Shown one piece after another: positions 45,601 through 48,600 of a stretch of DNA of 64,000 bases; the stretch's first letter is position 1; every line of letters starts with the position of its first letter. The notes below the pieces were generated by a model, which worked only from the letters and a program-made list of their open reading frames with translations, did no database searches and was not told the DNA's origin. The stretch covers positions 1,460,001 to 1,524,000 of the forward strand of contig WPIO01000062.1 of the NCBI GenBank assembly GCA_009760855.2, read 5' to 3'. Both the position numbers and the translations under genes were made by a program. The DNA comes from Cristatella mucedo. Lineage: Eukaryota > Bryozoa > Phylactolaemata > Cristatellidae.

Positions 45601-48600
45601 AAAAAAAGGTCAATGTGGCCATATTCCAGGAGACACGACACGAGCAGGAATTTATTAGGGTGTCTGGCAAATAAAAGTATAGCATATTGTGATTGAAAGC
45701 CATATTACGGATATCAGAAAGCACAGGTGGCATCTAGGATCACAAACCTGAATTATTTCTTGTTCAATGGTGCACCAAGCAATTCTAGACAGGCAATCGT
45801 TACACTAGACCAGTGGTTCTCAACCTCCCTAATGCTGCGACCCTTTAACTCAGCTCCTCATGTTGTGATGAACCCCAACCATAAAACTATTATGTGCAAA
45901 ATGTAGAAATGCGTGTTTTGCTATGGTCTTAGGCGACCCATGTGAAAGGGTCGTTCGAGACCCACAGGTTGAGAACCACTGCACTAGACTCCAATTAATG
46001 CTCAACAGAAAAATGTGTTTTGACGATTTGCTTTTCCACGCAGGTCAATGATAATCTTACACTGCTTCAAATCATCTCAGGTCAATGGCCGCATATGCAA
46101 AAATGGGATTCTTTCAAACCTTGACAGCTACCCAAATACCTCAGCCAATTGCTGAAAACGTATTCCTCTAACGTCGGATCCGTTTAAAATCTAAACCATC
46201 TTTTCACGCAACAGAGGAAGATTAGGTTCCAAGAAACGAAAGCGTGTGAAAAGTGCCGAGTGGCTTCTGAATCTGCAAAAACCCTTTATTGGTGTTTTTG
46301 CCTTATTGCAATCAATCTAATTGATAATAACAATAATAATATATCCGTATAGCACCATCAGGGAACTGAATCTTACTATGCATTTTACAGATGCTGTAAA
46401 GAAACCATGACCAAATGATGAGTGGTAACATGCAAAATGTCATCAAGAATAACATTGCTTGACGTGACACGGACAGGTTAGGGTCATCGTGTAGATATGG
46501 TTAGTAGGATTGACATGCACAAACATTACTTCACGATACATGTCCCGTCATGTAGAATTGTTTCGGTAGCATGACATTACCTAAATACTGCAGTTTTATG
46601 GTAGGTAAGGTGATTGCTCTTCAAGAACGAGGTCGTAGGTTCGAATCCTACAGTGGGCGATTCTTTACTGCCAACTGCGGTGATAGCCATTAAGGCTCTT
46701 TTGCCACTATACAAAAGAGGCTGTTAGATCAGTTAATATTTGTAATATAATATTTAATCGCAAGTCCCAGCATCTAATGATTTCTTATATGTTAAGTGCA
46801 TACAGTAAACATATAACACTGCTGGCCCGAGAAATCTGTGGATGTGCCAAGGTCTGGTATATTCAGTTTGGCAAAATGAATTTCTTAATACCACAAAGAA
46901 CCAATAGTGAAATTAGAAATTTGGGCAAATGTATTTTTTCCAGACGTACTAGAGAGCTCAATAACTTCAGCATGTCGCAACACTCGGTCAACAAATTCAG
47001 AAATTACCAGCTGCGACTAATACTAATAAAGATCTTCCCCTTGCGAAACAGGCTTGGTTGTCCATTAAAAGCTTGCTACTAAGAATCACCAGACTGCACA
47101 CAATCGCTAGCCTTCTGGGCATAATGGGACTATGCCATATCGGATTCAGTGGATATTAGCGCTCAAACGAATATGAGATTTTCCAAGCTCTCTTAGAGCC
47201 AGAAGGGTGCTATGGAGGCATTAAAAATCGAGGATTGTTCTGATTGAGCATTGTGAGGAAGCTGGAACAGTAAAAAGAACAGGATATCACAATTTGAAGA
47301 CATTATAACTGACTGGGATGACCGCAGTATCAAGAGCAGCAGTCGTCGGCTGCTTAATAAGCAATATGAGATAAGACGGTGGGAAAATGATGATCGTAAT
47401 GCTGAATAGATTCAGCAGTTCAATTAAAAATTAAGATAGCATTTCAGGGACTACTATCAGCATGAGAGCTATCAGGGAAACGCTTGGCAAACATAGTGTG
47501 AACTCTTTTGAGTCGCAAAGAGGACTAGAACCCAGTTGAATGGAACTAAGTTTTGTCGATTGAGAAGCTCTAGTTTCTACTCTTGCTAGGTCACACGACA
47601 TTAGGTCTACTTCATCTTGGCACGTGTGTAGAAAGTTTCATGGTCAGTAAGCCGGTCTGCTTCTTTCGAAAAGTTCTTAGCAGCTCCACCCATTGAGCAG
47701 GGCAGGCAACACCGATCGTAGCTAATGATACAGCTGCCAGCTCCACGTCCCCCACTGAATTCAGCAATTACCCTGGGATGGTCCGCCAAGCAGCACTGGA
47801 CTTCGGCGTTTCACCGTGGTCTATCTTCCTCGACAGCTTGTTGGTAAATTTCGGCTACAATACCCTTATTTTACTACTTCAAAGGCTGATTCCAATACGC
47901 CACTCTTATAGTAGCCCTCTTCCTGACGTAGCACTGAGGCATACAATAAGACCAAAGCAGGACCGAGAACAGACAGTGTAACCCTGCTTTTAAGGATATT
48001 GGCCCTCCATCAGCACGCAGCACCACATGATCTGGATTTCATCTGGCAACAGGACAATAACCAGCAGCATAGCGCAGACATTAAAAAAACTGAACTGACA
48101 GGATTTGGACAGGCCAGCTCAAGAGCCCAGAACTCATGGACAAACAGATCAAGGCTGTAATTAGAACATAATGTGAGTCCATTCTAACGTCGGCAGTCCA
48201 AATGGGTATCTTTTCAATCCAAAGAATGTTAGCAAAAACAGTAGTATACCAGCAGCAGCATCAAAATGCAAGTGAACAGATCGAACATATAGAGTACGAA
48301 ATACCAGAAACGATAATGTAGCACAAGATAGAAAGAATAGACTACATGATAATCAGGAATTGAACCCAGGACCCCCAAAAACTTGTCTAATTTCAGTTCA
48401 ACTACTTTAATCTAACAAAACCTAACTAACCAAGAGTCGGGTGTCAGACCTACGTTGAATATAATATTATAATATCAATACAATTGCCAACAGAGCTTAC
48501 TTTTCGTCATCAGCCAGGCAATGCACCAGTATTGGTAATATGCCAGAGTCGATTAAGTCATCGATAGGAGGATTTCGGTCACTGGACAACAATTTCCTAA

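Follow-up and report, generated by a model that had tools for sequence, protein, structure and literature searches.

A probable non-autonomous SPIN-type hAT element within an importin-alpha-3-like gene intron

Genomic context

The window, the whole stretch of 64,000 bp analysed here, contains an importin-alpha-3-like gene on the minus strand. Pfam matches to IBB and Arm domains were obtained for its exons, and one exon matched importin alpha-3 in the PDB (best E 4e-51). In tblastn searches with human KPNA4, the exons shared 58%–93% identical amino acids with an uncurated query sequence; the IBB had 58% and the most C-terminal match 61% identity, and values are understated for three matches that extend into intron. 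The exons flanking a 3.7-kb intron match about residues 96–129 and 130–156 of human KPNA4. Within this intron lies a short element bounded by inverted repeats, and the intron acceptor is located about 980 bp beyond it.

37295..56119, minus strand: importin-alpha-3-like gene (IBB, Arm), exon-covered stretch forming the insertion context; the span is that of the detected exons
44832..48500, minus strand: predicted intron of the importin-alpha-3-like host gene, with GT..AG ends, containing the element; boundaries read by eye

Evidence on the host comes mainly from the importin-alpha-3-like gene, whose sequence makes an invertebrate plausible. A vertebrate or other chordate would be a less demanding host for a SPIN-type copy, without any cross-phylum story: SPIN occurs in tetrapods, with 385 in a turtle according to the relevant part of PMC4054807. 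This is quite improbable, as the exon identities to human KPNA4 would, by general expectation, be low for a vertebrate. A vertebrate host was therefore disfavoured. A second gene, on the plus strand at about 24–30 kb, has RhoGAP and START domains in Pfam and may be DLC1/STARD13-like.

Structure of the element

The element has 171 bp. Its coordinates were exact on a re-check of the whole window, and its parts are as follows.

45803..45810, no strand: left target site duplication (TSD), 8 bp CACTAGAC, fits nnnTAnnn
45811..45826, plus strand: left terminal inverted repeat (TIR), 16 bp CAGTGGTTCTCAACCT
45827..45891, plus strand: left subterminal block, 57/65 bases the same as in the uncurated SPIN consensus
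45892..45912, plus strand: 21-bp centre without a confident alignment to the uncurated SPIN consensus (internal-deletion zone), limits chosen by the authors
45913..45965, plus strand: right subterminal block, 50/53 bases shared with the uncurated SPIN consensus; a single 16-bp gap lies beside 45958
45966..45981, minus strand: right TIR, 16 bp CAGTGGTTCTCAACCT
45982..45989, no strand: right TSD copy CACTAGAC, 8/8 identical to the left copy

The two TIRs pair without a mismatch over all 16 positions. The whole window was searched for the TIR with up to three mismatches, and the element's own ends were the sole two matches (0.70 expected by chance). A scan for TIRs together with TSDs also yielded one structure in the window, the element at 45811–45981. 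The scan covered lengths of 60–2500 bp and required an exact 8-bp TSD and a TIR of at least 10 bp, starting from an exact 7-base seed and then allowing one mismatch. Among 20 windows resampled by an order-1 Markov model, one had a single match, and the longest TIR was 12 bp versus 16 bp in the element.

Folded as DNA, the element strand reached −30.1 kcal/mol versus a mean of −14.63 kcal/mol for dinucleotide shuffles (z = −5.86), and none of 200 shuffles folded as well. The outermost 16 pairs of this fold are the TIRs.

The element is noncoding. With 171 bp, it offers room for at most 57 codons and is too short to encode a transposase. The window has 166 stop-to-stop frames of at least 90 amino acids, and the element lies outside all of them. 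A transposase was not noticed among these 166 listed reading frames, nor did Pfam reveal one in the 10 that were submitted. Rfam at gathering scores had no match in the window; at E values up to 1, its 25 rows all lay outside the element, and 24 belonged to miRNA families. A second copy was not found in the window by blastn, where matches other than the element's own TIRs had 11–31 bp and E values of at least 1.2. The initial annotation, which had described a noncoding 171-bp element with perfect 16-bp TIRs and an exact 8-bp TSD, was accurate in all these respects.

It had also called the insertion relatively recent. TIRs and TSD together provide 24 paired positions without a difference. This perfect identity fits a recent insertion loosely, since 24 positions still allow a pairwise divergence of up to 11.7% at the 95% bound.

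hAT and Buster features

An 8-bp TSD is a criterion of the hAT superfamily (relevant sections of PMC3517528 and PMC11008031), and CACTAGAC is present on both sides of the element. Short TIRs of 5 to 27 bp are another (same section of PMC3517528); the 16 bp observed lie within this range. That source also gives nnnTAnnn as the TSD consensus of Buster elements. CACTAGAC fits it, as a single site and with a pattern that many sites would fit. SPIN was placed in hAT-Charlie in a passage of PMC4054807.

The subterminal regions are enriched in short motifs. In the section of PMC4298943 on Buster1, the subterminal repeats are given as TGGGTCGCG. The element has two near-copies within one mismatch, a number that none of 2000 mononucleotide shuffles reached. 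The motif GGGTCG, chosen after inspection of the element, occurs three times in its 171 bp (0/2000 mononucleotide shuffles) versus 18 times in the other 63,829 bp of the window. The MITEs of Buster1 and Buster2 described there are hAT elements like the present one and arise by internal deletion. Their TIRs differ from that of the element: the four printed sequences are identical at 11/15, 12/16, 12/16 and 7/12 positions, which does not place the element in Buster1 or Buster2. According to the same excerpt, terminal sequence of about 106 bp is similar in all Buster elements. Subterminal similarity is therefore not strictly family-specific.

Similarity to SPIN

The element was aligned to an uncurated consensus of non-autonomous SPIN, with no database record behind it. 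It aligns to both ends of this sequence, the two matching stretches being about 81 and 69 bp long. With the TIRs excluded, 107 of the 118 interior flank positions are identical, about 91% (57/65 left and 50/53 right). The block limits behind these values were chosen by us after the alignment; element position 148, which two blocks share, was counted once as a match, and counting it against gives 106/118. The 21-bp centre is unaligned, 16 bp of the uncurated consensus are missing near the right end, and TIR position 168 of the element differs from the consensus. SPIN-type flanks around an internal deletion are established relative to this uncurated reference only.

The TIR-trimmed interior had a local alignment score of 93 with the uncurated SPIN interior; none of 1000 shuffles reached it (maximum 30). 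The likewise uncurated interiors of MER20 and MER5A gave scores of 17 and 18, equalled by 355 and 197 of 1000 shuffles, respectively. As SPIN scored 93 and the other two remained at shuffle level, the similarity is SPIN-type and extends beyond the TIRs. A match confined to the TIRs, named in the initial annotation as the outcome that would contradict it, was not what we found.

These scores also bear on another origin of the structure. The terminus CAGTGGTTCTCAA is widespread in hAT-Charlie elements, so that the ends by themselves could belong to a different family of this group, MER20- or MER5-like, or the structure could have formed by chance. Both are highly improbable. The interior matches the uncurated SPIN sequence, with MER20 and MER5A not above their shuffles, and a TIR plus TSD of such length occurred in none of the 20 resampled windows. 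A MER20- or MER5-like identity was disfavoured on the interior scores.

The TIR agrees with CAGYGGTTCTCAACCT, which we take to be the TIR of the SPIN family. Printed sequence came from mouse: the parts seen of two mouse papers give the Ate1 3′ arm reverse primers TCAGTGGTTCTCAACCTGTG and CAGGGGTTACCTAAGACCAT, and one printed primer contains the same 16 letters as CAGYGGTTCTCAACCT. Along the minus-strand end of the element, the nested primers align in the same order, the first with 19/20 identical positions at the tip and the second with 17/20 starting at position 40. Judged from these matches, both primers may sit within one mouse SPIN-type repeat. Further exact-letter searches of open papers for SPIN sequence gave nothing beyond the mouse primer papers. 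Together with the 81 and 69 bp aligned to the uncurated consensus, the primers support the SPIN-type terminal and subterminal match that had been noted at the outset.

TIR, 8-bp TSD and both subterminal flanks are shared with SPIN (SPACE INVADERS), known from tetrapods and Rhodnius prolixus. Relative to the uncurated SPIN consensus, the element is distinguished by its length of 171 bp, a centre that cannot be aligned and the absence of 16 bp near the right end. We assign it as a non-autonomous SPIN-type hAT MITE (Buster/Charlie-like), with a probability of roughly 0.8.

Exact-letter searches were extended to sequence collections. The query GGTTCTCAACCTNNCTAATGCNGC had no match in a genome-contig collection, and GTCTTAGGCGACCCNTGTGAAAGG had none in either the genome-contig or a viral-contig collection; as exact letters are required, these searches would overlook diverged SPIN copies. 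In the viral-contig collection, the TIR pattern was present in 10 stretches, with a second exact TIR in none of them. Their 800-base surroundings scored 14 to 21 against the element interior. The comparison level of 28–32 came from shuffled interiors against the uncurated consensus sequences and is not a matched null. Lacking a second TIR and scoring below this level, the 10 matches were taken as chance and rejected as SPIN copies.

Possible origin of the copy

An autonomous relative elsewhere may produce a transposase that acts on the element in trans. The transposase would recognise the TIRs and probably also the GGGTCG-rich subterminal sites, excise the element and paste it into CACTAGAC, creating the 8-bp duplication. 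Here, the landing site would have been the intron of the importin-alpha-3-like gene, where an insertion was probably neutral.

How the family reached this host is a separate question. The initial annotation proposed horizontal transfer, which is plausible: the noncoding flanks share about 91% identity with a family best known from tetrapods, in an alignment that covers the termini and uses an uncurated reference. The similarity of Buster termini over about 106 bp weakens such terminal similarity as proof of transfer. For an invertebrate host, we rate it as somewhat more likely than not that the family at some point arrived by horizontal transfer.

An older, vertically kept SPIN-related family, without recent exchange with vertebrates, would account for an alignment confined to the two ends (81 and 69 bp), and the shared Buster termini (excerpt of PMC4298943) point in the same direction. 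In our judgement, about 91% identity over 118 noncoding bases, with an uncurated reference, is high for binding-site constraint alone acting between animal phyla. The four printed Buster TIRs are also much less similar to the TIR of the element. We consider vertical inheritance unlikely.

Horizontal transfer could have had a more specific course, in which SPIN entered an invertebrate lineage that is unlisted as a host, and a new, shorter deletion derivative, from which a subterminal palindrome of the family had been lost, then spread in that lineage. This proposal is tentative and we would sooner doubt than accept it. If true, it would add one more host to the cross-phylum spread of SPIN. A short derivative of this kind would give a clue to the end sequences that are dispensable for mobilisation.

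SPIN in invertebrates

SPIN and SPIN-like hAT elements in invertebrates have already been published for a triatomine bug and a snail, and the element would add one more. In Rhodnius prolixus, the identity of SPIN, OC1, hAT1 and ET to vertebrate copies reaches about 98.1% (passage in PMC11614815). In Biomphalaria glabrata, about 1000 copies are reported of a hAT whose identity to SPIN is significant (passage in PMC5440852). By description, this hAT and the present element are alike in being hATs with similarity to SPIN in an invertebrate context; one copy was present here in 64 kb. A passage of PMC5791352, in which SPIN is unnamed, states that planaria and hydra underwent several horizontal transfers, and Buster1 is known in a planarian (passage in PMC4298943).

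Of the earlier invertebrate SPIN reports that the initial annotation listed, the triatomine bug was thus confirmed. SPIN in a pond snail or a planarian was not found in the literature examined, where the snail is another one, B. glabrata; further invertebrate reports may exist. Lymnaea is not mentioned in the excerpts of PMC5791352, PMC5331948 and PMC3513734, and the name Lymnaea stagnalis occurs in PMC4344730.

One copy in one intron is ordinary by itself. If the family came by horizontal transfer, the host becomes an extra data point on the animals exchanging SPIN.

Other repeats and base composition of the window

A dispersed repeat of about 140–160 bp has fuller copies at 2397–2554, 33210–33368, 25790–25936 and 55377–55515, which are 85%–90% alike, and partial copies at 5057–5166 and 53972–54067. 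It resembles a SINE, perhaps of tRNA origin, whose tail is LINE-like; ARAGORN detected no tRNAs in the window. Other repeats, about 80 bp long and with TTA-rich runs behind them, resemble the 3′ ends of non-LTR retrotransposons. They are located at 14177–14257, 22470–22554, 41425–41508, 43597–43677, 50365–50443, 51760–51842 and 62010–62093. L2/CR1-looking reading frame debris is present at 39251–40065 and 62222–63342, with no Pfam family at E 0.001. Half of the 10 reading frames searched with Pfam were without a family, including four L2/CR1-looking ones.

A GC-rich 16-bp satellite, GCCCCGACGGACCGTG, occupies 57858–58584 of the window with 45.2 copies and 98% matches and is open across several frames. 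The G+C content is 48%–61% per 4-kb step across 1–32000 versus 41%–45% in the 32–56 kb part. The left half (1–32000) also contains the majority of the window's long runs of CT and GT.
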